A stretch of 64,000 nucleotides of DNA from Chaetoceros tenuissimus (Eukaryota; Bacillariophyta; Thalassiosirophyceae; Chaetocerotales; Chaetocerotaceae), in NCBI GenBank assembly GCA_021927905.1, contig BLLK01000022.1, positions 3,224,001 to 3,288,000 of the forward strand, in the 5' to 3' direction. Positions 8,132 to 47,892 of this stretch are shown one piece after another (positions within the stretch are counted from its first letter, which is position 1; each line of letters starts with the position of its first letter). The notes under the pieces were generated by a model, which saw only the letters and a list, made by a program, of their open reading frames with translations, had not been told where the DNA came from and made no database searches. The position numbers and the translations under genes were made by a program.

Positions 8132-11100
8132 TTATTTACCTTCCGTAAGCTTCTTCGATAGGCACAAAACAAATTCTGTCATTTGTCGAAGCCTTTCTTC
8201 GACATTTTCCTGCCTAGATTCAAGAAATTGGATTCTGTCATTCTTTTGCTGAAGCTGAGTTTGTGGATCATTGACTGCTGCAACCATTTCTTCAAGTTTC
8301 TTTATTTCAGAAAGAGTTCGAACCGAATTTTCAAGGGTTTGAATTTTGGTATTCTGTTCTTCTAGCTGTGTCTGCAAATGATTGCTTGTCTTGCCGTAGT
8401 GTTGAAGTTTTTCTTCGTCTGCTTTTTGCCTAGATTCAAGAAACTGAATTCTATCGTTCTTGTCCTCAAGCTGTGATCTTAGGTCATTGACCGCAGAATC
8501 TATGCTTTCAAGTTTTTTCAAATCAGTAAGAGTTTGAACCAAATTTTCGAGAGTACTAATTTTGGTATTCTTTTCTTCTAGTTCTGTCTCTAATTGCTCA
8601 TTTGCCTTGCTAACGTCTTGAAGTTTGTCTTCGTCTTCTTTTTGCCTCGACTCAAGATGCTGGATTTTATCATTCTTTTCACGAAGCAATGATGTAGCAG
8701 CCATAGTTTCAAGTTTGTGCTTATTATGAAGAGTTTGAACTAAATTTTCGAGAGTACTGATTCTACTATTCTTTTCTTCTAGTTGTGTCTCTAATTGCTC
8801 ACTTGCCATCCTAACCTGTTGAAGTTTGTCTATGTTTGCTTTGAGCCTCGTCTCGAGATGTTGGATTCTGACATTCTTTTCCTCGAGCTGCTCTGAAGCA
8901 GTCACACTTTCCAGTTTCTTTATATCGTAAAGAGCTTGAACTTGTCCCAGGGCGCGAATTTCAGTATTCTTTTCTTCTAGCTGTGTCTTTAATTGCTCAC
9001 TTGCTTTATCGACGCTTTGTAGTTTGTCTTCATGTACTTTCAGTCTCGCTTCTAGAAGTTCAATTCTATCATTCTTTCCCTGGAGCTGTTCTGAAGCAGC
9101 CATACTTTCAACTTTATGTTCGTCGGAAACAGTGCGAACTAGATTCTCGAGAAATTTGATTCGACTATTCTTTTCTTCTAGCTGTGTCTCTAAATGACTA
9201 CTTGCCAGTGCAGCAACGCCCCCATGACTCTTTTCGTTTGCAGATGGCCTTGACTCGAGATCTTTGATTCTTTCATTCTTTTCCTGAAGCTGTGACTGTA
9301 GGTCTTTGACTGCTGCAGCCATACTTTCAAGTTTGTTTCCATCTGAAATGGTTCGAAATTTTTCTAGGATATGAATTTCAGCATCCTTTTCTTCTACCTC
9401 TGTCTCTAAAGACTCAACTGCCTTAGTAACATGTTCAAGACTTTCTTTGTCTGCTTTTTGCCTCGACTCGAGATGTTGGATTCTTCCATTCTTTTCCCGA
9501 AGCTGTTCTGAAACAGCCCTACAACGAGCAGAAAGAGTACGGCTTGAATTTTCCAGAGTGTTGATTCTATTTGACTTTTCTTCTAGCTGTGTCTCTAGAT
9601 TCTCAAGTTTAAGTTGATCCTCGATAGCATCGCCTTGCGCTTTCACTTCGATATTTACATTCCTCACAATTTGCTCTTCTTCTGCCTGAACCTGTGTCTG
9701 TTCTTTCTCTTGCATACATGCCTCCTGGGTCATTTCTGTAGAATCGGTTTTTTCATTCTTCTTTCCGTCTTTAGTCTGATGATCAGTAGCAACGGCATCA
9801 TTTGAGAGCTTCTGAATATTTTTATTGCCTATTGTTAAGGCGCCATTCCCATGGATTGTTTCATTCTTTTCTCTGACTTTCTTCTGACATTCAGTTGCAG
9901 CAACGGCATCATTTGAAAGCTGATCAACTTCATCTATAGTCAAGACACTATTAGTATTCGCTTTAGCTCTCTCGATATCAAGTAAACGCAAAAGTTTACC
10001 AAACACTTCATCTCTTCTTAACGACCGACGCGATGTCACACGACCTCTGCATATTGGGCACTCTCTTCGATACTCCAAGGCTTCTTCTATGCAACCTTTA
10101 CAGAACCTATGGCAGCATTCTGGTACTATATGCGGGTCATTGAGCTTCTCTAAGCAAATCGGGCAAGACGTATCATGTACATCCGTATTGATAGTAGCTT
10201 TCTTCTTGGATTTATGACCGACAGGACGAATGTCATTGTTCTCCTTCGCTGGAAAAGAAGGAGAAAGTTTTTCATGTTCATGATTATTGCGATCGTAAGT
10301 AGCTTCTAGTCTATTTTGAGGATCGGTTGTCGTTTGAGACGACTGCAGACAATTGGTACTATCCATAAAATCATGCATGTTTTCTTCGACTAATGTATCC
10401 TTTTCTGGTGTAACAAAACTTTGTTCATTATTGTTTTTCCTTCTTGGTTCATTTGCCTTTATCTTTTTCAAATTTTCAATTGGATCATCTTCTTCATCTC
10501 TGCTTCTCTTTGTGTTGCCGCAATCACCAGTAAGAAGAACATGGTTTGGCTTGTTAATAAATTCCATAGTTGCTGTAGAATCTTCCTCACTGTCATCCGC
10601 AGTCTTTTGCGGTTTCCCATTTACTCCTTTTTCTTTGAAATATTCCTTGGCATGGAATGCTACTTGCTTATTATCTTTCGTTCCAACATGGTTCGCTATC
10701 GCTCCCCAATGACCTCTACCATATTTGTCTAGGCCCTCTAGAAACCAAAGATGTTCTTCGGTAGTCCAATAGCAGTCAATCTTCTTCAAATAGCAGTAGC
10801 CATGTTTACGAACTTGCTCTCTATTTCTCGTTTTCACGTGAGAAGCAACATCTTTCCATGATTTGCCATGTTGTTTATATCCTTGAAGAAAGCGATCGTG
10901 TTCGCCAGCAGACCATTCTCCAACATTCGTCGCAAATGGTTTTCGAGGCTCAGAATGTGCACTCACGCTTGCTTTGCGTTGGCTTGATTCTTCATAATCT
11001 GAAGAAGAATCTTCACTGTCATCCAATATTTGAATTTTACTCATTTCTTCGAAATATTCCTCGGCATGGAATGATACTTGCTCGTTGCTTTTTGTTCCCA

Positions 11101-12586
11101 CATGAGATGCTATCTCTATCCAACGTCCTTTCCCATATTGTTCTAGGCCTTCTAGAAAGCGACGATGTTCTTTGGTAGTCCAATAGCAGTCAGTCTTCTT
11201 CAAAAAGCCCCAAGCATGTTTAGAAACTTGCTCTGTGCTTCTCGTTTTCACGTGGGATGCAATATCTTGCCATGATCTACCATATCGTTCCAATCCTTCA
11301 AGAAAGAGACAGTGTTCTATTGTAGACCATTTTCCAGTATTCGTCTTGTAATCATCTTTCAATGGTTTCTGGGTCTCCGTTGTGGTGCTAGTCTTCGCTT
11401 TATCTTGGCTTAATTTGTTGGGAATTACTTGAGCATTTTTGTCAGAGGTATTGTTTGATGTTCTCGTGTCTGTGTCTGTGCTTCTCGGCTTGTCATTACC
11501 ACTCACTTCCTTACCACAAACTAACATATGAAAACGCCAATCAGCTTGCTGACAAACTAAAGAACAATAGTCTACATTGCGACAGCCAGAGCAAAGCATC
11601 AGCTTCTCAGTATTTTTGCAAAGTGAATTATTACAAACTCTCGACTGTAAAGCTTGTCCCTTCAATTCTTCACTAGATGATTTTCCCTTATCCGTATTGA
11701 CAAGTTCTTTTGATGGTTTCTGGGTCTCCGTGGTGGGGCTAGCCGTCGCTTTACTTTGGTTTGCCTTTTCGGGAATAGCTTTGGTCGTTACTCTCATCTT
11801 ATTTGGTGTGCTCGCAACCGTGCCACTCGGCTTGTCATTACCACTGGTGACCTTACCACAAACCCACATATGAGCATTCCAATCAGATTGCTGACATGGT
11901 AAAGAACAATAGTGTACTAGAAAGCAACCGGTGCACTTCCTGAGATCATTAGTCTTGTTGCAAAATTCATAATTACAACACTTAGATTTCGAAGCTTGTT
12001 CCTTCAATTCCAATGAAGGATCCCTCAAAAATTGCGGATGAAACCAAACACTAGCTTCAAAAGTACTGCTAGATAAATCTTGACGGAAACCATATGCATA
12101 TAGCTCTCTTTGAAAATGACTCATGTCACGAAAGTATGCCCCAAAGTATAGAGGAATTGCGACTTTTATACATGCGCGGTTGAACACCACAAACGATCGA
12201 CCACTAGTAGGATGCCACGCTAAGGCATGGTCGAGGGATTTGTCACCCAGCATTTTCCTTAGTCTGAATAGAAACGGTTCTTCTTTCTGAAATGAATGAA
12301 AATAATGCTCAACTTCTCCAGTATTTCTCGAGTGGACATGAGCTGCAATTTGTTTCCAATTACAGCCGTATTGATAGAGACCGTCTAGAAATGCAGAGTG
12401 CTCTTTCTCGGCCCACGGTCCTTTCCTTTCAGCTTCGTCAGTTTTAGTTGCTAAGGGTTTCCCATCACTGTTAGATGTGCTTGCTGCACTTTGTTTCTTC
12501 TCTTCCGAAGAAGATTTGTCAGAAGCAGAAGTTGCACATCCAGTTTTAGATGTGTACGTTTCGCTCCTTCGATCCCAAGCATTCAT
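8132..12586 (-). CDS. Array gene A: SANT-HSF-MYND2-SANT4-RING-coiled coil protein
   Basis: Intact single-exon frame of 1484 codons. Order: leader (1-54); SANT/Myb module 55-105 (KGPWAEKEHSAFLDGL); HSF-like domain 105-190 (PFLFRLRKML, SFVVFN, WFHPQFLRD); two MYND fingers at about 203-243 and 318-358 (CTGCFLVHYCSLPC; CSGCRNVDYCSLVC); two SANT pairs at about 419-517 and 556-655, each ending in a SHAQKYF-like helix (VSFHAEEYF, VAFHAKEYF); RING 808-848; then a coiled coil of about 600 residues in superrepeats of about 67. The RING has all eight ligands and continues SRRSLRRDEVF, as in RING1/RING2. No C-terminal HSF domain. MYND fingers bind proline-rich partners and RINGs recruit E2 enzymes, so a DNA-targeted ubiquitin ligase is the simplest reading. 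Nearest relative by promoter sequence is the relic at 39 kb. Confidence 0.85.
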   Translation of the reverse strand: MNAWDRRSETYTSKTGCATSASDKSSSEEKKQSAASTSNSDGKPLATKTDEAERKGPWAEKEHSAFLDGLYQYGCNWKQIAAHVHSRNTGEVEHYFHSFQKEEPFLFRLRKMLGDKSLDHALAWHPTSGRSFVVFNRACIKVAIPLYFGAYFRDMSHFQRELYAYGFRQDLSSSTFEASVWFHPQFLRDPSLELKEQASKSKCCNYEFCNKTNDLRKCTGCFLVHYCSLPCQQSDWNAHMWVCGKVTSGNDKPSGTVASTPNKMRVTTKAIPEKANQSKATASPTTETQKPSKELVNTDKGKSSSEELKGQALQSRVCNNSLCKNTEKLMLCSGCRNVDYCSLVCQQADWRFHMLVCGKEVSGNDKPRSTDTDTRTSNNTSDKNAQVIPNKLSQDKAKTSTTTETQKPLKDDYKTNTGKWSTIEHCLFLEGLERYGRSWQDIASHVKTRSTEQVSKHAWGFLKKTDCYWTTKEHRRFLEGLEQYGKGRWIEIASHVGTKSNEQVSFHAEEYFEEMSKIQILDDSEDSSSDYEESSQRKASVSAHSEPRKPFATNVGEWSAGEHDRFLQGYKQHGKSWKDVASHVKTRNREQVRKHGYCYLKKIDCYWTTEEHLWFLEGLDKYGRGHWGAIANHVGTKDNKQVAFHAKEYFKEKGVNGKPQKTADDSEEDSTATMEFINKPNHVLLTGDCGNTKRSRDEEDDPIENLKKIKANEPRRKNNNEQSFVTPEKDTLVEENMHDFMDSTNCLQSSQTTTDPQNRLEATYDRNNHEHEKLSPSFPAKENNDIRPVGHKSKKKATINTDVHDTSCPICLEKLNDPHIVPECCHRFCKGCIEEALEYRRECPICRGRVTSRRSLRRDEVFGKLLRLLDIERAKANTNSVLTIDEVDQLSNDAVAATECQKKVREKNETIHGNGALTIGNKNIQKLSNDAVATDHQTKDGKKNEKTDSTEMTQEACMQEKEQTQVQAEEEQIVRNVNIEVKAQGDAIEDQLKLENLETQLEEKSNRINTLENSSRTLSARCRAVSEQLREKNGRIQHLESRQKADKESLEHVTKAVESLETEVEEKDAEIHILEKFRTISDGNKLESMAAAVKDLQSQLQEKNERIKDLESRPSANEKSHGGVAALASSHLETQLEEKNSRIKFLENLVRTVSDEHKVESMAASEQLQGKNDRIELLEARLKVHEDKLQSVDKASEQLKTQLEEKNTEIRALGQVQALYDIKKLESVTASEQLEEKNVRIQHLETRLKANIDKLQQVRMASEQLETQLEEKNSRISTLENLVQTLHNKHKLETMAATSLLREKNDKIQHLESRQKEDEDKLQDVSKANEQLETELEEKNTKISTLENLVQTLTDLKKLESIDSAVNDLRSQLEDKNDRIQFLESRQKADEEKLQHYGKTSNHLQTQLEEQNTKIQTLENSVRTLSEIKKLEEMVAAVNDPQTQLQQKNDRIQFLESRQENVEERLRQMTEFVLCLSKKLTEGK

Positions 12587-12785
12587 TTTCCTATTATGAC
12601 TTTTGATACTATCAATAATTTCTTTGAAGAAAGCTTAAAGTAGATGAATAGATGAATGAAGGTATACCTCTGATAGCTCAAGATACTTTATTAGTTGCAG
12701 TTCATTCTAATTGGTTGAGAGTTGAAGAAGAATGAGAGAAATTACTGAGAAAACATACTTACTGAAATAAGCGGTTGACATCATG

Positions 12786-13023: not shown

Positions 13024-16000
13024 TCACTTTTCGCCATTGTTGAGGCTTTCACTATTGACTTCCTCTAGCTTTTTCTTTAGGCTTGAAACGACTGCAGTCA
13101 TTTGTCGAAGTTTTTCTTCATCTTTTTCTTTCCTAGATTCAAGAAATTGGATTCTTTCATTCTTTTGCTGAAACTCTGACTGTAAATCTTTGACTGCTAC
13201 AGCCATACTTTCAATTTCGTGTTCATCAGAAAGAGTGCGAGCTACTTTTTCGAAAGCGTCACTTCTAGTTTTCTCTTCTTCAAGCTGAGTCTCTAGATGC
13301 TTACTTGTCTGACTTAAACATTGAAGTTTTTCTTTGTCTGCTTTTTCCCTCGACTCGAGATATTGGATTCGATCATCCTTATGCTGAGACTGTGATTGTA
13401 GATCTTTGACTGCTGCAGCCATCTCTCTAATTCTGGATTGATTAGAGAGAGTTCGAATCAGTTTCTCGAGGGCTTTAATTTTGGTATCCTTTTCTTCTAG
13501 CTGTGTCTGCAACAAAAGATTGCTTGTCTTCATATCATCTTGAAGATGTTCTTCGTCTATTTTTTGCCTCGATTCAAGAAACTGGATTCTATCATTCTTG
13601 TCCCGGAGCTGCGTTTTTAGATCATTGACTGAAGTAAAAAGACTTTGGACCAAATTCTCGAGAGTTTGAATTTTAGTGTTCTTTTCTTCCAACTGTGCCT
13701 CTAAATACCCACTTGCCTCACCATCTTTTTGCAGTTGAATCTCGATAGCTTTGTCTTGTGATTTCATTTCAATATTTATATTCCGGGCATTTTGCTCTTC
13801 TTCTACGTGAATCTTATTCTCTTCTTTCTCTTTCATATATGCCTCCTGGGTCATTTCTGTAGTATCGGTTGTTTCATTCTTCTCTCCGTCTTTAGTATGA
13901 TGACTAGCAATAGTGACGTTATTGTCTGATAGTTGTTCAGTATTTGTATTGGTTAGTGTCGAAGCTATATTTGCATTCAATTTAGCTCTCTCGACATCAA
14001 GTAAACGCAAAAGTTTACTAAACACTTCATCTCTTCTCAATGACCGACGCGATGTCACCCGACCTCTACATATTGGACATTCTCTTCGATACTCCAATGC
14101 TTCTTCGATGCAACCTTTACAGAATCTATGGCAGCATTCTGGTACTATATGTGGGTCATTGAACTTCTCTAAGCAGATTGGGCAAGAAGTATCGTCAATG
14201 TCATCAGGTGCAGAACGTTTTTTGTCATTGATTACCTCTTCTTTCTCTGCAATGCCTTGGACATCTTCATTACTTTCTGGCTCTAAGTAATTGCAAGTAA
14301 CTTCGTTTCCATTTTGAAGGTCAGTTTTCTTTTGATAAACCGACTTCAGACTATTGGTACTATCAATCATTCTCTGCATATCACCTTCGAGTCCTGTATT
14401 CTTTTCAGGAGTAACAATTCTTTGTTTGTCATTTTTCTGTTTGATTGATACCCTTGTTATTCTCTTACTAGAACTCGTACTCGTGGAATCTCCTGCTTGA
14501 TCTATGTTTCGCTTTACATTTGTTGAACTTACATTGATGAGATTAGGGTTAGGTTTCTTCACCAACTTCCTAGCCACTAGGGAATGCTCATCACTCCCAT
14601 TCTTCGTCTTTTGTGATTTTCCGTTGATTTCTTCGTCTTTGCAATATTCCTTGGCATGGAATGCTACTTGATCATTGTTTTTTGTTCCAACATGGGTCGC
14701 TATCTCTACCCAATGACCTCTACCATATTGCTTCAGACCCTCTAAAAAGAGTTGATGTTCCTTGGTAGTCCAATAGCAGTCAATCTTGTTCAAATAGCGG
14801 TAGCCGTAGCCATTGACTTGCGCATAACTTCTCGTTTTCACGTGAGAAGCAACATGTTTCCATGATCTACCATGTTGTTCCAATCCTTCTAGAAAGCGAT
14901 TATGTTCTTCAGCAGACCAGTACCAATCTCTTTCACTCTTCTTGATAATTCCTACAGAATCTTCTAAACTACTATCCATCTTTTGCGACATCCCATTCAT
15001 TTTTTCTTCTTTGAAATATTCCTTGGCATGGAATGCTACTTGCTTATTGTTTTTCGTTCCAACGTGGGTCGCTATCACTACCCAACGTCCTCTACCAAAT
15101 CGCTTCAGACCCTCTAGAAAGCGAAGATGCTCTTTGGTAGTCCAATAGCAATCAATCTTCTTCATATGCCCTCTGGCATGGTTATTGACTTGAACAGTAG
15201 TCCTTGTTTTCACGTGAGAAGCAACATTTTTCCATGATCTACCATATCGTTCCAATCCTTCTAGAAAGAGACAGTGTTCTCCAACAGACCACTCTCCAGT
15301 ATTCGTCTTGATATCATCTTTCAATGCTATCTTGGATTTAGAGGTTGTGATAGGCTTTGCTTTACGTTGGTTTGATTTTTTCGAAATTACTTCAACGTTT
15401 TTGTCATGAGATTGTTTTGATGTGCTTGTGTCAATTCTTCTCGGCTTGTCATTACCACTCATATCCTTACTACAAACCCACTTATGAAAACTCCAATCAT
15501 TTTGTTGACAAGCTACACAACAATATTGAACATTGCGACAGCCAGAGCATTGCATTAGATTACCAGTCTTCTTGCAAAACTGATAATCACAAACATTTGT
15601 TTTCGAATCTCGTTGCTTCAATTCCAATGAAGAGTTCCTACAAAAGTCCGAATGAAACCAAACACCATTTTCTGCATTTTGTTCAAATCCATGTGTACAA
15701 AGCTCCTTTTGAAAATGATCAAAGTTAAAAGAGTCTCCTTTGTAAAGAAGAACAGCAATTCTCATACAAGTCAACTCATTATAAATGCGGAATGATTGAC
15801 CACCAGGCAACCATGCTATGATATGATCCAGAGCGAAGTCATCAAGCATCCTTCTTAGAGTAAATAGAAACGGTTCTTCTTTCTGAAATGAATGAAAGTG
15901 ACGCTGAACCTCTTCAGTATTTCTTGAGTGGACATGAGCTGCAATTTGTTTCCAATCTTTTCCGTATATATAGAGACCGTGTAGAAATGCACCGTGCTCA

Positions 16001-16176
16001 CTATAAGTCCATGGAATAATTATAGTTGTAGGTATAGCTAGTACTCCCTTAATACTGCTAGCACTGCTTTTTGAATCTTTATTTTTCCTCTCTGTATCTT
16101 CCGATGAAGATTTGTCAACAGAAGTTGCACATTCGCTTTCAGACGTGCACGTCTCACTCTGATCTAAAACATTCAT
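13024..16176 (-). CDS. Array gene B: SANT-HSF-MYND-SANT4-RING-coiled coil protein
   Basis: Intact frame of 1050 codons. Leader, then an SANT module whose usual KGPW entry is IPWTYSEHGAFLHGL; HSF-like domain (PFLFTLRRML, SFRIYN, LYKGDSFNFDHFQKEL); one MYND (CDYQFCKKT, CSGCRNVQYCCVAC); two SANT pairs; RING from residue 665 (CPICLEKFNDPHIVPECC) with all ligands, followed by SRRSLRRDEVF; coiled coil of about 320 residues. Shorter coiled coil than A and no canonical HSF domain. The HSF-like domain belongs to the KGDSFNF subtype shared with F and I, different from the LPLYFGAYFRD subtype of A and H. Confidence 0.85.
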   Translation of the reverse strand: MNVLDQSETCTSESECATSVDKSSSEDTERKNKDSKSSASSIKGVLAIPTTIIIPWTYSEHGAFLHGLYIYGKDWKQIAAHVHSRNTEEVQRHFHSFQKEEPFLFTLRRMLDDFALDHIIAWLPGGQSFRIYNELTCMRIAVLLYKGDSFNFDHFQKELCTHGFEQNAENGVWFHSDFCRNSSLELKQRDSKTNVCDYQFCKKTGNLMQCSGCRNVQYCCVACQQNDWSFHKWVCSKDMSGNDKPRRIDTSTSKQSHDKNVEVISKKSNQRKAKPITTSKSKIALKDDIKTNTGEWSVGEHCLFLEGLERYGRSWKNVASHVKTRTTVQVNNHARGHMKKIDCYWTTKEHLRFLEGLKRFGRGRWVVIATHVGTKNNKQVAFHAKEYFKEEKMNGMSQKMDSSLEDSVGIIKKSERDWYWSAEEHNRFLEGLEQHGRSWKHVASHVKTRSYAQVNGYGYRYLNKIDCYWTTKEHQLFLEGLKQYGRGHWVEIATHVGTKNNDQVAFHAKEYCKDEEINGKSQKTKNGSDEHSLVARKLVKKPNPNLINVSSTNVKRNIDQAGDSTSTSSSKRITRVSIKQKNDKQRIVTPEKNTGLEGDMQRMIDSTNSLKSVYQKKTDLQNGNEVTCNYLEPESNEDVQGIAEKEEVINDKKRSAPDDIDDTSCPICLEKFNDPHIVPECCHRFCKGCIEEALEYRRECPICRGRVTSRRSLRRDEVFSKLLRLLDVERAKLNANIASTLTNTNTEQLSDNNVTIASHHTKDGEKNETTDTTEMTQEAYMKEKEENKIHVEEEQNARNINIEMKSQDKAIEIQLQKDGEASGYLEAQLEEKNTKIQTLENLVQSLFTSVNDLKTQLRDKNDRIQFLESRQKIDEEHLQDDMKTSNLLLQTQLEEKDTKIKALEKLIRTLSNQSRIREMAAAVKDLQSQSQHKDDRIQYLESREKADKEKLQCLSQTSKHLETQLEEEKTRSDAFEKVARTLSDEHEIESMAVAVKDLQSEFQQKNERIQFLESRKEKDEEKLRQMTAVVSSLKKKLEEVNSESLNNGEK

Positions 16177-16404
16177 TTTCTTTGATGGGGCACTTCTTGA
16201 TTCTCTCGAATACCTTCTTTTGGAAAGAAGCTCAATGTATCTGTGAATATCTATCTATAGTTGAATGAAGGTAGACCTCTAATGTCTCAAGTTGCTCAAG
16301 CATATACATATATGTTGAATATTGTCTGTCGACATAGAGAAGAATGAGAGAAAGATACGTAAAAAAGAAAATACTCGGAGTTGCCGTTTGCCAAAAGGTA
16401 GCAT

Positions 16405-16838: not shown

Positions 16839-19800
16839 TCACTTTTCGCCATTTGACGCATTCACAACTGAGGTGAACATATTTTCTACCTTTAGCTTCT
16901 TCGATATGCGTTGAAAAAATTCTGTCATTTGTCGAAGATTTTCTTCATCTTTTTCATTATTAGATTCAAGAAATTGGATTCTTTCATTCTTTTGCTGAAA
17001 CTCTGACTGTAAATCTTTCACTGCTGCAGCCATACTTTCAATTTGGTGTTCATCAGAAAGAGTGCGAGCTACTTTTTCGAAAGCGTCACTTCTAAATTTT
17101 CTCTTCTTCAAGCTGACTTTCTAGATGCTAACTTGCCTGGCTTAAGCATTGAAGTTTTTCTTTGTCTGCTTTTTCCTTCGACTCGAGATATTGGATTCTA
17201 TCATTGATTGGTTGAAGCTTTGTTTCACCTTCCTCTAACTTCTTCGTCATTTGTTGAAGTTTTTCTTCGAAATCTTTGATTCTATCATTCTTTTCTTGAA
17301 ACTTCGCAGCTATCTTTTGTAGTTTGCTATCATGAGAAAGAGTTCTAACCATTTTTTCAAGGGTTTGAATTCTTGCTTTCTTTTCTTTCAGCTGGTTCTC
17401 TAAATCTTTGCTTACTAATGCCTGCTTAGCCATGTTTTGGACTTTTTCTTCTTCTGCTTTCTGCTTCGATTCAAGAAACTGGATTCTATCGTTCTTTTCT
17501 TGAAGTTGGTTTTTGAGTGTTACATCATTTTGCTCAATCTTTTTCTCGAGAGTTTTGATGCTGAGCTTCTTCTCTTTGAGCAGTTCTTTGAGCAGTGCAG
17601 CCATGTTTTGGTGATGCTTTTCGTCATCTTTTTGCCTGGACTTGAGATTCTTGATTACATCATTTTGTTGCTGAAGCTTTGTTACTAGTCTTTCATTCTT
17701 CTGAAGCAGTGTATGTTCAGAAAGAGTTCGAATCTGTTTCTCGAGGGTTTTGATTTTGAGATTCTTTTCTTCGCTTTTCTTACAATGCTGTTGAAGTTTT
17801 TCTTCGTCAGCTTTGTGCCTTGATTCGAGAAATTGGATTCTATCATCCTTATGCTGAGACTGTGATTGTAGGTCATTGACTGCTGCAGCCATCTCTCTAA
17901 TTCTGGTTTGATCAGAGAGAGTTCGAATCAGTTTCTCGAGGGCTTTAATTTTGGTGTTCTTTTCTTCTAGCTGTGTCTGCAACAAAAGATTGCTTGTCTT
18001 CATATCATCTTGAAGATGTTCTTCGTCTATTTTTTGCCTCGATTCAAGAAACTGGATTCTATCATTCTTGTCCCGGAGCTGCGTTTTTAGATCATTGACG
18101 GAAGCAGAAAGAGTTCGGACCGAATTTTCTAGAGTGTGAATTTTAGTGTTCTTTTCTTCCAACTGTGTCTCTGTATGATCACTCGCCGCCCTACCGTCAT
18201 GTTGAAATTGAATCTTGATAGCTTTGTCTTGTGATTTCATTTCAACATTTTTATTCCGGGCATTTTGCTCTTCTTTTACCTGAATCTGATTCTCTTCTTT
18301 CTTCTTCATACAGGCTTCCTGGATCGATTTTACAACATCAATTCTTTCATTCTTCTCTCCGGTTTTAGCCTGATGATTATCAATAGCAAAAGTATTTGTA
18401 ATGGTTAGTTTCGAGGCACCATTAGCATTTGCTTTTGCTCTCTCGACTTCAAGAAGCTGCATAAGTTTACCAAACACTTCATCTCTTCTCAATGCCCGAC
18501 GCGATGTTACCCGACCTCTGCATATTGGGCACTCTCTTCGATACTCCAAGGCTTCTTCGATGCATCCTTTACAGAACCTATGACAGCATTCTGGTACTAT
18601 ATGTGGGTCATTGAACTTCTCTAAGCAAATCGGACAAGAAGTATCATCAATGTCATCAGGTTCAGAATGTTTCTTGTCATTGATTACCTCTTCTTTCTCT
18701 GTAATGCCTTGAACATCTTGATGTGCATTGAAAGGTAAAAGTAGCGACTTATCATAAAGTTTCTTGCTTTCTTGCACTAAGTTATTGCAAGTAGCTTCGT
18801 TTCCATTTTGAAGGTCAGTTTTCTTTTGATAAACCGATTTTAGACTATTGGTACTATCAATCATTCTCTGCATATCACCTTCGAGTCCTGTATTCTTTTC
18901 AGTAGTAACAATTCTTTGTTTGTCATTTTTCTGTTTGATTGATACCCTTGTTATTCTCTTACTAGAACTCGTACTCGTGGAATCTCCTGCTTGATCTATA
19001 CTTCTCTTTGCATTTCTCGAAGTTACATTGATGAGATTATGGTTAGGCTTCTTTACCAACTTCCTAGCCACTGGAGAATGCTCATCACTGCCATCCGTCA
19101 TTTTTTGTGATTCTTTGTTCATTTCTTCTTTTTCGAAATATTCGTGGGCATGAAAAGATACTTGCTCTTTGTATTTTGTTCCAACATGGGTCGCTATCTC
19201 TTCCCAATGACCTCTTCCATGTTGATCTAGACCCTCTAGAAAGAGTTGATGTTCTTTTGTAGTCCAATAGCACTCAATCTTGTTCAAATAGTGGTAGCCG
19301 TAGCCATTGACTTGCGCATAAGTTCTCGTTTTCACGTGAGAAGCAACATGTTTCCATGATCTACCATGTTGTTCCAATCCTTCTAGAAAGCGATTATGTT
19401 CTTCAGCAGACCATTCTCCAGTATTCGTTTTCATAATTCCTACAGAAGAGAAATATTTGTCAGCATAATATCTGACTTGATAATTCGTTCTCGTCTTTAT
19501 ATGTGAAGCAATCTTCTTCAAATCTTCTATACCGTATAGTTCCAAGCCTTCTACGAAAAGTCGATGCTCCTTATCTGTCCACTTTCCTTTGTTCAGCTTG
19601 TCAGAATAAGGCGAAAGTAAGTTTGACTCATCACGAAGTTCATTACTTCCTTGCACTAACTCATCACAAGTAGCTTCATTATTTCTTTCAAAGTCAGTAT
19701 TCGTTTGATGAAATGGCTTCAGACTATTTGTACTATCCATCATGTTCTGCGCTTCACCGTCGAGTGCTGTATCTTTTTCTGGAGTGAAAATGCTTAGTTC

Positions 19801-20538: not shown

Positions 20539-20730
20539 TTTCTTGATGACACTTCTCAATTCTTTCTGTTAGAAAGAAGCTCAATGTAGATGAATGCCTA
20601 TCTATATATGAATGAAGGTAGATATCTAAAATGGCTCAAGTTGCTCTAGCTAGTGAGAGAAGAATGAGGAAAGAAAGAACGTAAAAAATGAAAATACTTG
20701 GAGTTGCCACGTTGCCAAACAATGAAGCAT

Positions 20731-24441: not shown

Positions 24442-24644
24442 TTTCTTGTTTGTTGACTGACTCTTCTTTATTCTGATCAAAGAAGCTCAATGTATATAAA
24501 TAAATGTCTACCTATAGATAAATGAAGGTATTCCTCTCAAGGCTCAAAGGATGATCCACATATAGTCGGGAGAGTGTGAGAAAAGAATATACATGAAAAA
24601 GAATACTTGGAGTTGCCGTTTGCCAAACATCAAGCATCAAATGG

Positions 24645-28767: not shown

Positions 28768-28953
28768 AGTATTTGACTTGCTTGAACACTTTCTTTTACC
28801 AAGAAGCTGTGGAGACAAAAAAATCTTGAAATGAAAGAAGTTATACCAGCTCAAGTTGCTCCAATTATATATGTTCAATACGAGTATCTCCGTCGAAAAA
28901 GAGATTGCAGAGGAGAAGAAAAAAAGAAAATTCGGAGTTGCAGCCAGTTAGCC

Positions 28954-34478: not shown

Positions 34479-34676
34479 TTCTTGATTCTGATCAATATTT
34501 CTCTCGAAGGAAACTCGCCAAATTAAATACTAAATACCTATCTATAGCTGATTGAGGCATTTCTCTAATAGCTCAAGTTTATCCAATTACCTACATATAT
34601 TCTTCGAAGTGAAGGAGTGAAGATCGTGAAAAATAAAATACTCGGAGTTGCCGTTTTGCCAAACAAAAATGAGCAT

Positions 34677-38257: not shown

Positions 38258-38415
38258 TTCCTTTGATTTCTTGATTCTCTCGAATACCTTCTTTTGGAAA
38301 GAAGCTCAATGTATGTATGAATGAAGGAAGATATCTTTAATAGCTAGAAGGATGAGAGAAAGATGCGTGAAAAATGAAGATCCTCGGAGTTGCGTTTTGC
38401 CAAACAAGCTAGCAT

Positions 38416-39417: not shown

Positions 39418-42400
39418 TTACCATTTTGCTTCAGTATTTGCATTCATTACATTTTCATCATCCTTTGTCTGAACGCGAGTCTCTTCTTTCTCTTTCACAC
39501 AGGCCTCCTGGGTAGGTTTTGTAACATCGATCGCCTCTAGTGGAGTCTCAAACGATATTTCAACTTCCGCCATCGGCTCCTCATCACATGATCCTATAGC
39601 TGGATGTATAGGGGCAGCACTCATTGTTTCGTCAGCTTCCTGCTTATTCTGAGACATTGTTTTTATCATGTTTACAGCTTTCTCCATTTCGCCTCGCATA
39701 GCCGCCAATTGGCCTTTCAAGGACGTCACTTCATTTTTCAGTGCGTTCACTACATCTTGATCCGCCCCTTGAGAATTGTCGACCTTTTTTATTTCGCACA
39801 AAAGATCTGGTCTCCCTCTCAAGAAAAACTCATGACGGAATCTACAATACTTTGATTCAGGCCCTTCTTCACCTATGCTTATCTTGATTGGTTCATTTTT
39901 GATTTTTCTAAAGCCGTAGACATTGAGTTGCCTTACAAATGATTTGAAGTTGTTATGCTTGAAGAATTGGGGAATAATATTTTTCGCAAAGGTATCGGGA
40001 TCTTTAACGGCAAAAGAATCTCCACTATCCGACCAAGATGCAATAGTAGGGTCGCATGAATCGATCATGTGGTAAGTCTTCTGTAGGAAAATAGGGATGC
40101 CAAGAGTCTTCTTCTTTGATGACTCCTTGATTTCTTGTGCATGATTCACATTTGCCTTTTTTCCAGTAGAGCGCTTGATCTTTGACAATAGATGAATTTT
40201 CCCCTTTCTAAAGTTTTGATTGTGAAAGCGCACATGATCTACACGAATGGTTTTCAGTGACACTTTACTAAAACCATAAAAGTTTAGCTGACGAGAAAAC
40301 GAACTAAAATTGTTATGATTGAAATATTTCGGAATCTCAACCTTTGCAAATTGAGCAGTGTCCTTGACAGTAAACGTTTCCCCATTATCACTCCAATCCG
40401 CAAGTTGATCTGAACATGTAGAAATGAGCTGATATGTCTTGATCAAAAATAGAGGCACTCCAGAAGTCTCTAGTGCAGCAAGTTCTTGCTCAGGAGTCTT
40501 TGGTTTGCTGTGTATACTTCCCCTTTTTGTTTCATTCTCAGCCGCCTGTCCAGGCATGTCATTTGTATCAAAGACAAGTGGGAGATCAATAGTTTTTTCT
40601 TCTTCTATTACTTCGACTTTTTGCTTCCTAGATTCAAGAAGTTGGATTCTAACATTCTTTTCTTGAAGCTGTGACTGTAGATCTTTGACTGCTGCAGCCA
40701 TACTTTCAAGTTTGTGTACATCAGAATGAGTTCGAATTTCTTCTAGGATACGAATTTCAGCATTCTTTTCTTCTACCTCTTTCTCTAAATACTCGATTGC
40801 CTTAGTAATATGTTCAAGCCTTTCTTCATCTGCTTTTTGCTTCGACTCAAGTTTTTGGATTTTATCATTCTTTTCCTGAAGCTGTGATTGCTTTTCCTGA
40901 AGCTGTGATTGTAGATCTCTGACTGCTGTAGCCATACTTTCAATTTCGTGTTCATCTCCAAGGGTCCGAGCTAGTTCTTCAAGGACTTCAATTCTGGCGT
41001 TCTTTTCTTCTACCTGAGTCTCTAGATGCTCACTTGACTTGCTCAAACATTGAATTTTTTCTTTGTCTGCTTTTTCCCTCGACTCGAGATAATGGATTCT
41101 TTCATTCTTTTCGTCTAGAAGTGCTTGCAAATCCCCAAAAGTTTTCTCTAAATGCTCAACATGTTCAAGCCTTTCTTCCTCAGTTTTTTCCCTCGACTCG
41201 AGATGTTGGATTCTTTCATTCTTTTCGTCTAGAAGTGCTTGTAGATCCTCAAAAGTTTTCTCTAAATGCTTAACATGTTCAAGCCTCTCTTCGTCTGTTT
41301 TTTCCCTCGACTCGAGATGTTGGATTCTTTCATTCTTTTCCTGAAGCTGTGATTGTACCTCTCTCAGCTCTGCAGCCATACTTTCAATATTGTGTTTGTC
41401 ATAAAGAGTGCGAGATAATTTCCACAGAGCGTTACTTCTGGTTTTCTCTTCTTCTAGCTGAGTCTCTAGATGTTTATTTGCCTCACTCACAAATTGACGT
41501 TTATCTTCGTCTACTTTCCCCTTGGATTCAAGATATTGGATTCTATGATCATTTTCATGAAGCTGTGATTTTAGATCATAGATTACATAATCGTTTTCCT
41601 GGAGATGTGATTGTAAATCATAGATTACATAATCGTTTTCCTGGAGATGTGATTGTAGATCATAAATTCTATCATCATTTTCATGAAGCTGTACTTGTAG
41701 ATCATAGATTGTTTGATTCTTTTGTTGAAGCTGTGTTTGTAAATCTTTGACCTCGTTAGCAATACTTTCAAGTTTACCTTTGTTTCTATCAAATAGAGTT
41801 TGAACCAAATTCTCGAAAGATTCAATTTTGCTATTCTTTTCTTTTAGCTCTTTCTCCAAACGCTGAAACGCTCTATGTACATTTTCAAGTCTTTTTTCAT
41901 CTTCTTTTTGCCTCGACTCGATATGCTGGATTCTATAATTCTTTTCCTGAAGCTTTGCTGAAGCAGCCATATTATTAACCTTGTATTCTTCAGAAAGACG
42001 CAGAAGATTACCAAATACTTCATCTCTTCTCAATGCACGACGCGACGTCACCCGACCTCTGCATATTGGGCACTCTTTTCGATACTCCAAGGCCTCTTCG
42101 ATGCAACCTTTGCAGAATCTATGGCAGCATTCTGGAACTATATGCGGATCATTGAACATCTCCAAACAGATTGGACAAGAGATTTCATATACATCCGCAT
42201 CGACTGCTGAGTCACTACAAGTAGTTTCATGCCCATTTTGAAGTTCATTTGTCTTTTGATGAAATGGCTTCAGACTGAATATAACGTTCTGCATTTGTTC
42301 TTGGTCCGCATGCTTTTCTGGTGTGACAATACTTTGCTCAATATGCTTTTGTCTCATTGATTCCATTGATTTTCTCTTCTTAGAACTTTGAGTTATCGTA

Positions 42401-43941
42401 TCTTCTTGATCTCTACTTCGTTTTGCATTACTTCCATCACCAGTGAAAAGAATTCGATTTGGCTCGTATAGAAACTCCCTAGCCGCTGGAGAATCTTTTT
42501 CGCTACCATCCACGTTCTTTTGAGGTTTCCCTTTCGATTCTATTTCTTCGAAATATTCCTTGGCATGGAAAGAAACTTCCAGATTGTTCTTCGTTTCTAC
42601 ATGGGATGCTATCTCTTCCCAATGTCCTCTACCATAATTTTCTAGACCTTCTAAAAAGAGTTGATGTTCTTTGGTAGTCCAATAGCTGTTAAGCTTCTTC
42701 AAAAAGTTCCAAAAATGATTACGAACTTGCTCTACTGTTCTCGTTTTCACATGAGATGCAATATCTTCCCATAGTATTCCAAATCGATCTAATCCTTCCA
42801 GAAAGTGCCGATGTTCATCAGTAGACCATTCGCCGTAATTAATATTCTTATCCTCTTTCAATGGTTTCTGAGTATTAGACGTTGAGATAGCCTTCGCTTT
42901 AGTTTGGTTGGATTCTTCGGGAATTACTTGAGTGTTATGATCAAAACTATTACCTTCTGTGCTCGTGTCCATGCCAGCGCAACGCATTAGATTGTCTGTA
43001 TTCTTGCAAAGTGAATTATTAAATACTCTTGACTGCAAAGCTTGTCCCTTCAATTCTTCACTGGATGATTTTCCCTTATCTATATTGGTATCTTCTTTTG
43101 ATGGTTTCTGGGTCTCCGCAGTGGCACTAGCCTTTACTTCACTTTGACTTGTTTCTTCGGGAACTGCTTTGGTCAATACTCCGATCTTATTTGATTCGCT
43201 CGCGGACTTTTCATTATCACTCATATCTATACCACAAACCCACATATGAGCACTCCAATCCAATTGTTGACATTCTTCAGAACAATAGTGCACACACCTG
43301 CAACCAGTGCATCGCATGGGATTATCAGACTTTTTGCAACAATTATTACAACACTTAATCGATGTCGAAAATTGTCTCTTCATTTCCAATGGAGAATCCC
43401 TCAAAAATTGCGGGTGAAACCAAACACCAAAAGCAAATCCGCTGTGAGAGAAGTCTTGACGGAAACCATATGCATATAGCTCTTCTTGAAAATGACTCAT
43501 GTCACGAAAATATGCCCCGAAATAAAGAGGTAAGGCTACTCTTATAAATGCACGGTTGAAAACCTCAAACGATCGACCATGAGCCTGCCATGCTATAATT
43601 TTGTCCAAAGACTTGTCATCGAGCATTTTTCTTAGTCTAAATAAAAATGGTTCTTCTTGCTGAAATGAATGAAAATGATGCATAACTTCTTCAGCAGTTC
43701 GTGATTTTACTAGGACTGCTATCTGTATCCAATCTAAGCCATATCTATAGAGACCGTCTAGAAAAGCACTGTGCTCTTTGGAAGACCAAGGGCCCTTGCT
43801 CTCGCTTGAATTATCATGACCTAATGCTTTTCTTATACTGCCAAGAATGTTCTTCGCACTTTGCTTCTTCTCTTCCGATGAAGATTTGTCAGAAGAAGTT
43901 GCACTGCACGTCTCACTCTTCCGCTGCTCCCAAGCGTTCAT
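39418..43941 (-). CDS. Array gene H: SANT-HSF-MYND-SANT2-RING-coiled coil-HSF-HSF protein
   Basis: Largest member, 1507 codons. SANT (KGPWSSKEHSAFLDGL); HSF-like domain; one MYND (CTGCRCVHYCSEECQQLDW) and a truncated second MYND (NNSLCKNTDNLMRCAG, then unrelated sequence); one SANT pair; RING from residue 589 (CPICLEMFNDPHIVPECC) with all ligands; coiled coil of about 500 residues; then two different canonical HSF domains in tandem at about 1163-1265 (PLFLIKTYQLISTC, FSSFSRQLNFYGFSK) and 1282-1385 (PIFLQKTYHMIDSC, FKSFVRQLNVYGFRK). The first matches the one beyond the amber in E; the second matches D and F. The frame ends at TAA 39418-39420 where E has a glutamine codon in AKLQGN; homologous sequence continues for about ten more codons. 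Confidence 0.85.
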   Translation of the reverse strand: MNAWEQRKSETCSATSSDKSSSEEKKQSAKNILGSIRKALGHDNSSESKGPWSSKEHSAFLDGLYRYGLDWIQIAVLVKSRTAEEVMHHFHSFQQEEPFLFRLRKMLDDKSLDKIIAWQAHGRSFEVFNRAFIRVALPLYFGAYFRDMSHFQEELYAYGFRQDFSHSGFAFGVWFHPQFLRDSPLEMKRQFSTSIKCCNNCCKKSDNPMRCTGCRCVHYCSEECQQLDWSAHMWVCGIDMSDNEKSASESNKIGVLTKAVPEETSQSEVKASATAETQKPSKEDTNIDKGKSSSEELKGQALQSRVFNNSLCKNTDNLMRCAGMDTSTEGNSFDHNTQVIPEESNQTKAKAISTSNTQKPLKEDKNINYGEWSTDEHRHFLEGLDRFGILWEDIASHVKTRTVEQVRNHFWNFLKKLNSYWTTKEHQLFLEGLENYGRGHWEEIASHVETKNNLEVSFHAKEYFEEIESKGKPQKNVDGSEKDSPAAREFLYEPNRILFTGDGSNAKRSRDQEDTITQSSKKRKSMESMRQKHIEQSIVTPEKHADQEQMQNVIFSLKPFHQKTNELQNGHETTCSDSAVDADVYEISCPICLEMFNDPHIVPECCHRFCKGCIEEALEYRKECPICRGRVTSRRALRRDEVFGNLLRLSEEYKVNNMAASAKLQEKNYRIQHIESRQKEDEKRLENVHRAFQRLEKELKEKNSKIESFENLVQTLFDRNKGKLESIANEVKDLQTQLQQKNQTIYDLQVQLHENDDRIYDLQSHLQENDYVIYDLQSHLQENDYVIYDLKSQLHENDHRIQYLESKGKVDEDKRQFVSEANKHLETQLEEEKTRSNALWKLSRTLYDKHNIESMAAELREVQSQLQEKNERIQHLESREKTDEERLEHVKHLEKTFEDLQALLDEKNERIQHLESREKTEEERLEHVEHLEKTFGDLQALLDEKNERIHYLESREKADKEKIQCLSKSSEHLETQVEEKNARIEVLEELARTLGDEHEIESMATAVRDLQSQLQEKQSQLQEKNDKIQKLESKQKADEERLEHITKAIEYLEKEVEEKNAEIRILEEIRTHSDVHKLESMAAAVKDLQSQLQEKNVRIQLLESRKQKVEVIEEEKTIDLPLVFDTNDMPGQAAENETKRGSIHSKPKTPEQELAALETSGVPLFLIKTYQLISTCSDQLADWSDNGETFTVKDTAQFAKVEIPKYFNHNNFSSFSRQLNFYGFSKVSLKTIRVDHVRFHNQNFRKGKIHLLSKIKRSTGKKANVNHAQEIKESSKKKTLGIPIFLQKTYHMIDSCDPTIASWSDSGDSFAVKDPDTFAKNIIPQFFKHNNFKSFVRQLNVYGFRKIKNEPIKISIGEEGPESKYCRFRHEFFLRGRPDLLCEIKKVDNSQGADQDVVNALKNEVTSLKGQLAAMRGEMEKAVNMIKTMSQNKQEADETMSAAPIHPAIGSCDEEPMAEVEISFETPLEAIDVTKPTQEACVKEKEETRVQTKDDENVMNANTEAKW

Positions 43942-44133
43942 TATGTTGAGTGGCTAACTCTCTTATTACTGACCAATACTCTCTTTGCAAAGTAGCTGAA
44001 TGTCTATCTTCAAATATTAGAATGTATAGTATCTTTAATATTTAAAGTTGCTCCAATCTACATATTTGAGAAGAATGAGAGAAAGAGAAAGAAAATTACT
44101 CGGAGTTGCGTTTTCACAAACAAAAGTGAGCAT

Positions 44134-44177: not shown

Positions 44178-44320
44178 AATGTGACATTTTAGATAGCTGC
44201 ATTGGACCATCACTTTCAAATGTAAAATGGGAGATCATTGGTAGAAAGGTTCGTTCCCAGTTTCCGTTTTTATTTTATCTGATATTTTACATGTATTAAA
44301 TGTATCCCCTCAACTATCTA

Positions 44321-47300
44321 TCAACTATGATTAGTAAAACAAAAATCAATCAAGTTTACTTCTTCGCCATTCGACGCATTCACAACTGAGGTGGAAATAT
44401 TTTCTTCCTTTAGCTTTTTCTTTAGACATGAAACGACTGCAACCATTTGTCGAAGTTTTTCTTCATCTGTTTTTTGCCTCGACTCGAGTTGTTGGATTTT
44501 ATCATTCTTTTGCTGAAGCTGTGATTGTAGATCATAGATTTTATGATCATATTCCTGAAGCTGTGATTGTCTTTGATTCTTTACCTGAAGCTCTTCTTTT
44601 TGCCTCGACTCGATATGCTGGATTCTATGATTCTTTTCCTCAATCTGTGCTAAAGCAGCCATATTTTTAACCTTGTGTTCTTTACAAATACGTACAAGAT
44701 TACAAAAAACTTCATCTCTTCTCAATGCACGACGCGACGTTACCCGACTTCTGCATATTGGGCACTCTTTGCGATGCTCCAAGGCTTCTTCGATACAATC
44801 TTTGCAGAACCTATGACAGCATTCTGGGACTATATGTGGATCATTGAACATCTCCAAACAGATTGGGCAAGAGATTTCTTGTAAATCTGTTGTGATTACT
44901 GAGTCACTGCAAGTAGTTTCATGCCCGTTTTGAAGTTCATTTGTCTTTTGATGGAATGGCTTCAGACTAAAGATTACGTTCTGCATTTGTTCTTGGTCCG
45001 CATGCTTTTCTGGTGTGACAAAACTTTGCTCAATATGCTTTTGTCTCATTGATTCCATTGATTTTCTCTTCTTAGAAGTTGTAGTTATTGTATCTTCTCG
45101 ATCTCTGCTTCTCTTTGCATCACTCCCATCATCAGTAAAAATAATTCGATTTGGATTGTTTAGAAACTCTCTTGCTGCTGGAGAATCTTTCTCAATTCTA
45201 TCCGCAATCTTTTGAGGGTTCCTTTTCGATTCCATTTCTTGGAAATATTCCTTGGCGTGAAAAGATCTGCCATATTGTTCCAATCCCTCCAGAAAGCGAT
45301 CTTCAGCAGACCATTCTCTAGCATTCGTTTTGATATCTCTTTTCTCCATGCCACTCGGCTTGTCATCACCACTTATCCCCTCATTGCATATCCACTTATG
45401 AACACGCCAGTCAGATTTCTGACTTTCAACAGAACAATAGTATACATTGCGACAGCCGGAGCACTGCATTAAATCACCAGTCTCCTTGCAACATGTTTTA
45501 CAATAAACAATCGATTCCGGAGCTTGTTCCTTCAATTCCAATGAAGAATTCCTGCAAAAGTGTGGATGAAACCAAGCACCATCATATGGATTTTGTTCAA
45601 ATCGATGTGTATACAGCTCTCTTTGAAAATGATCAAAGTTAAAACAGTCTCCTTTGTAAAGAAGAAAAGCAACTGTCATACAAGTCAACTCATTGTAAAT
45701 TCGAAATGTTCGACCACCAGGCAGCCATGCAATGATATTATCAAGGGTGTAATCATTAAGCATTCTTCTTAGAGTAGACTCAAATGGTTCTTCTTTCTGA
45801 AATGAATGGAAATGATGCTGCACTTCTTCAGCATTTCGTGAGTTGACATAAGCTGCGATCTTTTTCAAGTCTTTTCCATATGTATAGAGGCCGTCTAGAA
45901 ACGCATAGTGCTCACTATAAGTCCACGGTCCTTTACTTTCTGAAGTGCGAGATGCAGGTTGAGCTTTTGACTTTTGATAACATGGGGCAAGACTTTGTAG
46001 AAAGCTCATAACTGCCGTTTTAGAATCATCCTCTATATCTTTACTTTCTGAAGTGCGAGATGCAGGTTGAGCTTTTGACTTTTGATCGGAATAACTTGGG
46101 GCAAGACTTTGTAGAAAGCTCATAACTGCCGCATTAGAATCATCCTCTATATCTTCATGCATTATTGTAAACCCTGATGTACCATGTGCTTGAACATCAA
46201 CATAATATGACTCTATTCCCCGCTGGGCGGTTTCTGTTGTTTGAATTTGACTCCGCAATTCATGTTCAAGCCTTTTCACATGTTTTCCTGCTTCTTCTCG
46301 ACGTTCCAAATACTCATCTTCGTCAAGACTTCATAAATATATGATAAGTGAGATTTTGTAATTACCCTGGGCCAATTTGCCAATAAAATACACCACTTAC
46401 CTCGTTTCTAGAATACTCTTTCTTTTCACATTTCCTATTCCTCCATCTTTCCCCAATTTCTTTGATATTCTCATTGGATTGCATTGTAAAACATGGGAAA
46501 GGAATTGTCTAAGGGTACTTCCATCGGGAACATCTACGAGTCCATCTTCATAGTACTTAATGAAAGTAGTGACATATTCTAATTCAAGATCCTATCCATG
46601 TTTGAAGAGTTTATGAAAATCATATACAATGCATTAGTTGTTGCTTCTGAAATCATACATGCTTCAAAAAGTAAATTTGACTGACTTACACTCCATTTTC
46701 CACCACGGTGATTATTTTGCCTACTCTCTGGGCTATTCTGTTTTAGCAACGCCGATGATAGTCCATGTCCAGGACTAGTTGCAGAATTTTCAGAATTCAT
46801 TTGTATACCTTGACTGCCAGATGCATCCCTTGTACTACCAGCACTGCTTTCTGAATTTTTGTTGTTGCTATCTGCACTTGGTTCTTTCTCTTCTGACAAA
46901 GATTTGTCAAGAGCTACCTGAGAACAATCTTCACTGCTATCCGCCGTACTTTGAGATTTCTTGTTCATTTCTTCTTTTTCAAAATATTCCTCGGCATGGA
47001 AAGATACTTGCTTATTGCTTTTCGTTCCTACATGGGATCCTATCATTACCCAACATCCTCTACCATATTTTTCGAGACCCTCTAGAAACAGTTGATGTTC
47101 TTTGGTAGTCCAGTAGCAATCAATCTTCTTCAAATTGTTTTTACCATGTTTACAAACTTGCTCTACGGTTCTCGTTTTCACGTGGGATGCAATATCTTGC
47201 CATGATCTACCATATCGTTCCAATCCTTCTAGAAAGAGACAGTGTTCTATTGTAGACCATGCTCCGACATTCATCTTGCCATTATCTTTCAAAGATGTGT

Positions 47301-47892
47301 GGGTATCTGTAGTGGCGCTAGCATTCGCTTTGCTATCTGTACTTAGTTTCTTATTTTCCAACAAAGGTTTGTCAAGAGCTGCCTGAGAAAAATCTTCACT
47401 GCTATTAACTGTATTTTCAGATTCTTTCTTTATTTCTTCTCTTCCAAAATATTCAATGGCATGGAAAGATACTTGCTCTTTGTTCTTCGTTCCTACATGT
47501 GATGCTATCTCTACCCAATGTCCTCTACCATATTGTTCGAGACCTTCTAGAAAGCAACGATGCTCTTTGGTGGTCCAATAGCAGTTGATTTTATTCAGAT
47601 AGTCGCTACCATGATCAAAAACTTGTTTGAACGTTCTCGTTTTCACGTGAGATGCAACATCTTTCCACGATCTGCCATATCGTTCTAGACCTTCTAGAAA
47701 CTGAAGATACTCTTCGTGAGTTCATGGACCTTTATTTTCAGCCACGCCATCTACAGCCGACGGTTCGTTGTTAGTACTTTTAGCATTGCTTTCCACACTG
47801 CTACTTTGATCTTCTGATGAAGATTTGTCAGCAGAAGTTGCACATCCGCTTTCAGACGTGCACGTCTCACTCTTCTGATCTGAAGCATTCAT
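44321..47892 (-). pseudogene. Array gene I: three-exon form with premature stop (SANT4 - SANT-HSF-MYND-RING-coiled coil)
   Basis: Exon 1 46690-47892 (leader plus two SANT pairs), intron 46592-46689, exon 2 46401-46591 (C-x-PMRISKKLG region), intron 46329-46400, exon 3 44321-46328; phases agree. Exon 3 has ERREEAGKHVKRLEH, two 114-bp repeat units, SANT (KGPWTYSEHYAFLDGL), HSF-like domain, MYND, a collapsed SANT (SAEDRFLEGLEQYGRS joined to FHAKEYF), RING (cysteine at 44869, all ligands intact) and a short coiled coil. Damage: codon 57, tryptophan of KGPW in relatives, is TGA (47722-47724). The MYND has lost a cysteine (YYCSVESQ for YYCSLACQ). Translation from the next methionine (47646) or from exon 3 could still give a RING protein. 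Confidence 0.7.
45929..46160 (-). repeat. 114-bp coding repeat in gene I
   Basis: Two units of the repeat also present in gene F; the unit nearer the SANT module has a 6-bp deletion (APCYQKSK for APSYSDQKSK). Confidence 0.75.

Follow-up and report, generated by a model that had tools for sequence, protein, structure and literature searches.

It has long been asked how ubiquitylation of the PRC1 type is routed to particular genes. One described precedent for the proteins considered here is an engineered one: as reported in PMC4048464, TetR was fused to a catalytic domain that joins RING1B and PCGF4 in a single chain; the fusion retained H2AK119ub1 ligase activity, and PRC2 components and H3K27me3 were enriched at TetO. 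According to the same report, canonical PRC1 components tethered in this way placed no H2AK119ub1, so tethering by itself is insufficient. In RING1B, I53 steadies binding of the E2, and K97/R98 take part in contact with the nucleosome (PMC10638273), whose acidic patch is the docking surface for RING1B/BMI1 and RNF168 (PMC6465349, PMC4382519). Animal RING1 acts paired with a PCGF protein and plant orthologs are able to homodimerise; the source of these statements also describes H2AK119ub as lacking experimental detection outside holozoa and Arabidopsis (PMC10638273). For the diatom Chaetoceros tenuissimus, the genome paper reports that MYND and HSF genes are commoner than in the three diatoms set beside it and that genes with RING-type domains are notably commoner than in the other organisms of the comparison; it counts the abundance of MYND, HSF and RING separately (PMC8613185). 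The original prediction for the locus described below held that no described family is known to join these domains in one protein, and searches of the open-access literature likewise yielded no description of a fused Myb/HSF/MYND/RING family; besides the genome paper they brought up work on algal transcription factors or MYB proteins and unrelated papers.

The window, by which we mean the whole 64-kb stretch of C. tenuissimus DNA (C16:3224001-3288000) that was analysed by means of an ORF list and Pfam, and whose array proteins match CTEN210_ entries of this species, carries nine related RING-bearing genes in tandem on the minus strand at 8132-47892 (Table 1), just where the original prediction had placed nine genes. 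Most of the array genes are single open frames of 669-1511 aa. HMM searches found every domain class that had been proposed, namely Myb, HSF, MYND and RING. In the Pfam scan, RING is present in all nine genes, Myb_DNA-binding in eight (it is missing from gene 4, 22228-24486) and MYND in six. The architecture is real, and it is complete, with all four classes, in six of the nine genes; the earlier statement that SANT, HSF, MYND and RING occur in one polypeptide nine times is therefore right for six genes and overstated for three. Judged by eye, the full set is free of a stop or of MYND loss in four genes (those at 8132, 13024, 34907 and 39418, named here and below by lower coordinate).

Table 1. 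Genes of the array and the position of their domains within the window.
Feature	Position	Strand	RING segment	N-terminal Myb and divergent HSF module	Canonical HSF	Composition
Gene 1	8132-12634	-	9950-10177 (RING and RING1B-like basic tail)	12020-12424		1500 aa ORF: Myb, HSF-like, two MYND, four more Myb, RING, long coiled coil
Gene 2	13024-16254	-	13969-14196	15634-16014		1076 aa: Myb, HSF-like, MYND, four more Myb, RING, coiled coil
Gene 3	17128-20568	-	18421-18648	19981-20373		1146 aa: Myb, HSF-like, three more Myb, RING, coiled coil; without MYND
Gene 4	22228-24486	-	23890-24117		23350-23685	752 aa: RING, canonical HSF, coiled coil; without Myb, without MYND
HSF behind gene 5	24931-25491	-			25114-25449	Canonical HSF, same frame, directly after gene 5 TAG
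Gene 5	25492-28947	-	26851-27078	28216-28602		1151 aa: Myb, HSF-like, four more Myb, RING, coiled coil; ends at in-frame TAG
Gene 6	29520-34529	-	31119-31346	32613-32999	29889-30224	5' exon 33651-34529 (two Myb), middle exon ~33472-33663; main part after exons: Myb, HSF-like, MYND broken by TAA, four Myb, RING, coiled coil, canonical HSF
Gene 7	34907-38305	-	35660-35887	37697-38095		1132 aa: Myb, HSF-like, MYND, six more Myb, RING, weaker coiled coil
Two-Myb (A/B) cassette, example	37004-37306	-				
Gene 8	39418-43953	-	41962-42189	43396-43797	39760-40455 (two)	1511 aa: Myb, HSF-like, MYND, two more Myb, RING, coiled coil, two canonical HSF
Gene 9	44321-47892	-	44654-44881	45548-45934		5' exon region with four Myb, middle exon ~46403-46591; main part after exons: Myb, HSF-like, MYND minus one Cys, short Myb remnant, RING, coiled coil

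The repeats that had been named SANT are indeed of Myb type, three to seven per Myb-bearing gene, and on HMM evidence are better called SHAQKYF-class Myb than generic SANT: TIGR01557 scored over its cut-off in five of the six proteins scanned, and the sixth (22231-24486) has no Myb. They are largely arranged in A/B cassettes of ~100 aa, 15 of which were aligned across the array, one being cut short at a stop. With many repeats per chain and a fused RING, the array proteins differ from SHAQKYF-class MYB-related proteins, with which they share the domain. The predicted HSF domain resolves into two kinds. An N-terminal HSF-like domain is present by alignment in eight genes; it exceeds the Pfam cut-off of 22 bits in five of them (8132, 17128, 25492, 32559, 34907) and falls just below it in gene 2 (13024; 20.5) and gene 9 (44321; 19.8), and gene 8 (39418) has three reported HSF stretches, with no separate score for the N-terminal one. 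Canonical HSF domains stand apart from these at the C-terminus, where three genes carry them in frame (22228, 29520 and, with two copies, 39418); together with the one behind the gene 5 stop, the five C-terminal domains scored 87.2-108.5 bits. The N-terminal block aligned to the C-terminal HSFs by hhalign with E 8e-7 and probability 91.6. It is divergent, and the recognition-helix Arg, a key DNA contact of HSF, is replaced in some copies (by Lys in two of eight, by Glu in one of eight). Like diatom heat shock factors, genes 4, 6 and 8 each have one C-terminal HSF that is 74-79% identical to P0013, a 470-aa HSF protein, whereas the other HSF of gene 8 (44%) and the one behind gene 5 (38%) are less similar to it; unlike in those factors, the HSF is embedded in RING/Myb proteins that have the divergent HSF-like domain near the N-terminus. 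The coiled coil of the original prediction stood up as well: the C-terminal tails of all nine genes have strong 3.5-residue hydrophobic (heptad) periodicity, and the observed power was reached by none of 1000 shuffles in eight genes and by 15 of 1000 in gene 7 (34907). This periodicity test was used in place of a coarser coiled-coil score, by which 0-28% of scoring windows exceeded the 99th percentile of shuffles.

The C3HC4 Cys/His ligands of the RING are complete and invariant in all nine genes, as is the Arg that follows the last Cys. When the gene 1 RING was compared with all sequences in the PDB, it matched best to a RING2-BMI1 chimera (E 4.7e-19), and to RING2/Ring1B chains with E 3.4e-13 to 1.7e-12; further matches were RNF4 (1.2e-11), RAD18 (3.8e-10) and BRCA1 (2.5e-8). 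At the positions of RING1B I53, K97 and R98, all nine RINGs have Ile, Arg and Arg, K97 being conservatively Arg, and the position of D56 holds Glu. The array proteins thus resemble RING1A/RING1B, the catalytic subunit of PRC1, in RING sequence, in the E2-contact Ile, in the basic K97/R98 positions and in a flanking S-[KR]-R-x-L-R motif; they differ in the Glu at D56, in the added Myb/HSF/MYND and in RAWUL, of which Pfam scans of the array ORFs found none. The only RAWUL match in the genome (C48:2354686-2354880) lies in an ORF of 310 aa that also encodes a RING, so C. tenuissimus has a separate RING1-like gene, and full RING1 orthology of the array genes is rejected. In a tree, the array RINGs and dispersed members group together as 14 sequences (99/99), and both HsRING2 and the RING-RAWUL protein of C. 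tenuissimus fall outside this clade, with a long-branch warning and on only 65 columns, so that the deeper order is unsure. Turning to the host histone, we found eight H2A loci, four of them readable in frame. Three of these four (L054, L056, L057) end in LLPKKSGK or LLPKKSSK, a context that we take to be comparable to that of animal K118/K119; the fourth (L061) has a different end.

Since the best solved relatives of the RING are RING1B and RING2, we favour reading these proteins as DNA-targeted chromatin ubiquitin ligases. We tentatively propose, with a probability of roughly 45%, that the array encodes lineage-specific, DNA-tethered RING ubiquitin ligases that would act on chromatin. Tandem pairs of SHAQKYF-type Myb repeats, with canonical HSF in some genes, would anchor the protein to specific places on the DNA; MYND would bring in partners, and through the coiled coil chains would pair or gather in clusters. 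The RING1B-like RING could then put ubiquitin on the chromatin adjoining the bound site, most likely on the H2A C-terminal tail. The outcome would be a one-chain, sequence-directed functional counterpart of PRC1 catalysis. That the proteins are nuclear, bind DNA, dimerise and have ligase activity, and which substrate they use (H2A being the likeliest candidate), are all points that we infer from sequence. The TetR-RING1B/PCGF4 protein likewise joins a DNA-binding domain and a RING1-type ligase in one chain, and its activity, as described in PMC4048464, indicates that the proposed mode of action can work when artificially built. Unlike that fusion, the array is natural and known from its sequence, with many Myb repeats and one RING in place of a RING1B/PCGF4 pair. 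Because each array protein has one RING, homodimerisation must be assumed. This single RING, with no obvious PCGF-like partner, the divergent N-terminal HSF and a basic pair that many RINGs of the wider family share are the main weaknesses of the mechanism; against it also stand the Glu at D56, the different end of the H2A at L061, the matches to the RNF4, RAD18 and BRCA1 RINGs and the stops in three of the nine genes. The original prediction had proposed DNA-targeted ubiquitin ligases on chromatin, and likeness to RING1B gives this idea better support than could be had from a first reading, yet it is one that we infer. If it is true, the array proteins would be natural counterparts of the artificial fusion, and a diatom could be used to ask whether placing ubiquitin on H2A at chosen sites is enough by itself to fix the state of a gene. 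Even without the H2A reading, they present an unusual regulator architecture that adds to the known abundance of HSF, MYND and RING in this genome.

The array had also been taken to be lineage-specific and expanded in tandem. Tandem arrangement is borne out, but the family is wider: at least seven loci lie outside the array, at C59, C14 (three), C22 and C48 (two), and the RING1-like family is much larger. In the 41.0-Mb assembly that was searched, the gene 1 N-module had 14 matches with E < 1e-29, eight in the array and six elsewhere, and the gene 1 RING had 121 six-frame matches. Our protein searches find relatives that share exact short words, which bounds any inference of absence elsewhere. 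Within that scope, eight relatives were obtained with the N-module (among 165 candidates) and eight with the RING (among 71), all window-encoded or from C. tenuissimus. A search with RING and HSF together gave 403 matches among 1528 candidates; seven of the 120 matches listed bear a RING, six of them again window-encoded or from C. tenuissimus and the other being P0039. This protein of 607 aa has MYND, a Myb cassette, a RING and an array-like tail, and its identity to array members is 39-52% in alignments at least 500 residues long. As far as these searches suggest, the family is so far seen in C. tenuissimus and in the relative P0039; among the RING-bearing relatives listed, all but that one fit the claim of lineage specificity. 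Of additional note, the window also contains two neighbouring Tudor genes (53066-56428 and 58197-61286); their common origin with a Tudor-MYND gene beside the C59 member is not shown, because the significant similarity is short and confined to the Tudor and MYND parts.

Several array genes are interrupted. Gene 5 is ended by a TAG (25492-25494) just before an HSF that is related to one that in gene 8 is continuous with its gene. In gene 6, a TAA (32559-32561) falls within MYND, and the deposited model CTEN210_03596 avoids this stop by a predicted intron. Gene 9 has an in-frame TGA (47722-47724) in its 5' exon, and in its MYND one zinc-ligand Cys is, by eye, a Ser. In-frame stops are thus found in three of the nine genes, and uninterrupted counterparts are present in other copies. 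The ORFs at 33651-34529 and 46579-47721 are 5' exons of genes 6 and 9 in the predicted models CTEN210_03596 and CTEN210_03599, whose first predicted introns are 98 bases each with identical starting letters; the upstream regions of the two genes are 84-86% identical on alignment. Outside the array, split family members occur at C14:64k and C22:54-58k. Ks between array copies ranges from 0.27 to 1.21. Pairwise Nei-Gojobori estimates gave a median Ka/Ks of 0.21 for the RING (36 pairs) and 0.34 for the N-module (28 pairs), which indicates that both are under purifying selection; this crude pairwise measure gave no sign of positive selection in either. By Ka, gene 8 is a mosaic: its RING is nearest to those of genes 6 and 9, whereas for its N-module the nearest are genes 1 and 7, and this suggests recombination between copies. 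The picture is one of birth-and-death evolution with constrained members.

The domain evidence fits a second way of using a DNA-tethered ligase just as it fits chromatin marking: the Myb and HSF domains may find promoters where the RING promotes turnover of other transcription factors, or of the array proteins themselves, with no histone marking. HSF competitors would be plentiful, with at least 151 HSF matches in the genome when 150 of 233 candidates had been scored, and an HSF expansion in diatoms has been described (PMC4827209). That RNF4 and RAD18 RINGs match as well would also suit such a role. It leaves unexplained, however, why the RINGs are so close to RING1B and keep its basic anchor positions in nine of nine copies, even if the basic pair may simply be inherited, and we consider turnover of transcription factors somewhat unlikely as the main function.

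A different idea starts from the order of domains. In having a RING and then a long coiled coil, and in their lineage-specific tandem expansion, the array genes recall the TRIM (RBCC) ligases, and a family of this kind might serve in defence by recognising viral proteins or DNA that enters the cell. The species is described as host of ssDNA and ssRNA viruses (PMC8613185, PMC12305248), and a tandem array with features of birth-and-death, namely stops and dispersed broken copies, could be expected of defence genes. Yet the RING lies mid-protein in most array genes, with MYND upstream, and Pfam scans of the array ORFs found no B-box, the ground on which TRIM membership is rejected; the median Ka/Ks values are low, positive selection being unseen by the crude test. 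The main text of an infection transcriptome paper (2025) contains none of the terms heat shock, ring, mynd, ubiquitin, CTEN210 and transcription factor, and in one scan of viral contigs with two peptide patterns 143 stretches matched, with no relative confirmed as a viral source of the RING. A defence role is therefore very improbable. The same stops and split ORFs, taken together with the mosaic relationships of gene 8, could instead mean that a hot spot of segmental duplication joined promiscuous domains into mostly non-functional by-products that are now decaying. We find this improbable, since frames of up to 1511 aa have stayed open at the Ks values seen among copies, Ka/Ks is well below 1, and P0039, at 39-52% identity, still has MYND, the Myb cassette and the RING.

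The reading as DNA-tethered chromatin ligases may be carried beyond the array, into the wider family of RING1-like RINGs. Pfam architectures were obtained there for 10 chosen ORFs in one scan and eight proteins in another. The RING1-like RING is fused to eight Myb stretches (L039), to HA domains (L034, L043, L049), to ankyrins (L041, L047, L048), to MYND and a weak Tudor (L045) and to PAH (L044). One kind of RING thus occurs in fusion with several modules that face DNA or chromatin, and also with modules of other sorts; the Myb and HA fusions, as further modules of DNA-binding type, speak for the proposed reading. It is conceivable, if unlikely, that C. tenuissimus has a whole repertoire of natural sequence-directed H2A ubiquitin ligases, in which a RING1-like RING was repeatedly joined to SHAQKYF Myb arrays, HSF, other Myb arrays, HA and MYND/Tudor, so that marking of the Polycomb type would be addressed by the ligase chain itself and not by PRC1 assembly. 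In a census of the retrieved loci with a strict pattern, which broken copies (C14:64k, C22:54k) escape, we counted 46 distinct RING sequences. The basic pair is kept in 32 of them, including ankyrin and PAH fusions, and so characterises a large part of the RING family and is not specific to DNA-binding fusions. The 14 RINGs without it come from loci L047-L050, where the ORFs scanned are ankyrin or HA fusions, among them a protein with four RINGs.

The contig around the array (C16, 3.146-3.357 Mb, about 0.21 Mb) is rich in RING1-like RINGs, the six-frame matches of the gene 1 RING: 18 of the 121 found genome-wide lie there, nine of them being the array itself. With 150 of the 233 genome HSF candidates scored, this region also holds at least four HSF matches besides the array's own.

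Beside the array lies a pair of related genes whose Tudor domains are of the PTM/DIR17 type, and one of the two also encodes a MYND. A dispersed family member on another contig (C59; L033:1-1926) likewise has a Tudor-MYND gene alongside, whose similarity to the window's Tudor genes is short and lies in the Tudor and MYND domains. In the Pfam scan, the 365-aa ORF had no match, and the 643-aa ORF had only weak Myb-like matches, located in its second half; the first half of the latter, judged by eye, looks recombinase-like and may be a candidate of that kind.

In the deposited models, genes 6 and 9 share a conserved middle exon, and the encoded block, which starts DLELEYVTTFIKYYEDG, had no Pfam match. 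In the family member on contig C14 (72-75k), the first RING is followed by a second RING-like block that, judged by eye, appears incomplete in P0005; conceivably, this block is a built-in partner RING.

Features in the window and at other loci of the assembly
Feature	Position	Strand	Remark
365-aa ORF	20896-21993	+	inside array, opposite to array genes
Middle exon, gene 6	33472-33663	-	deposited model
Middle exon, gene 9	46403-46591	-	deposited model
643-aa ORF	49998-51929		
Tudor gene	53066-56428		adjoins array
Tudor gene	58197-61286		adjoins array
C14 family member	L035:5904-7019	+	protein P0005
1131-aa protein	L050:1280-4672	-	four RING stretches and HA domain
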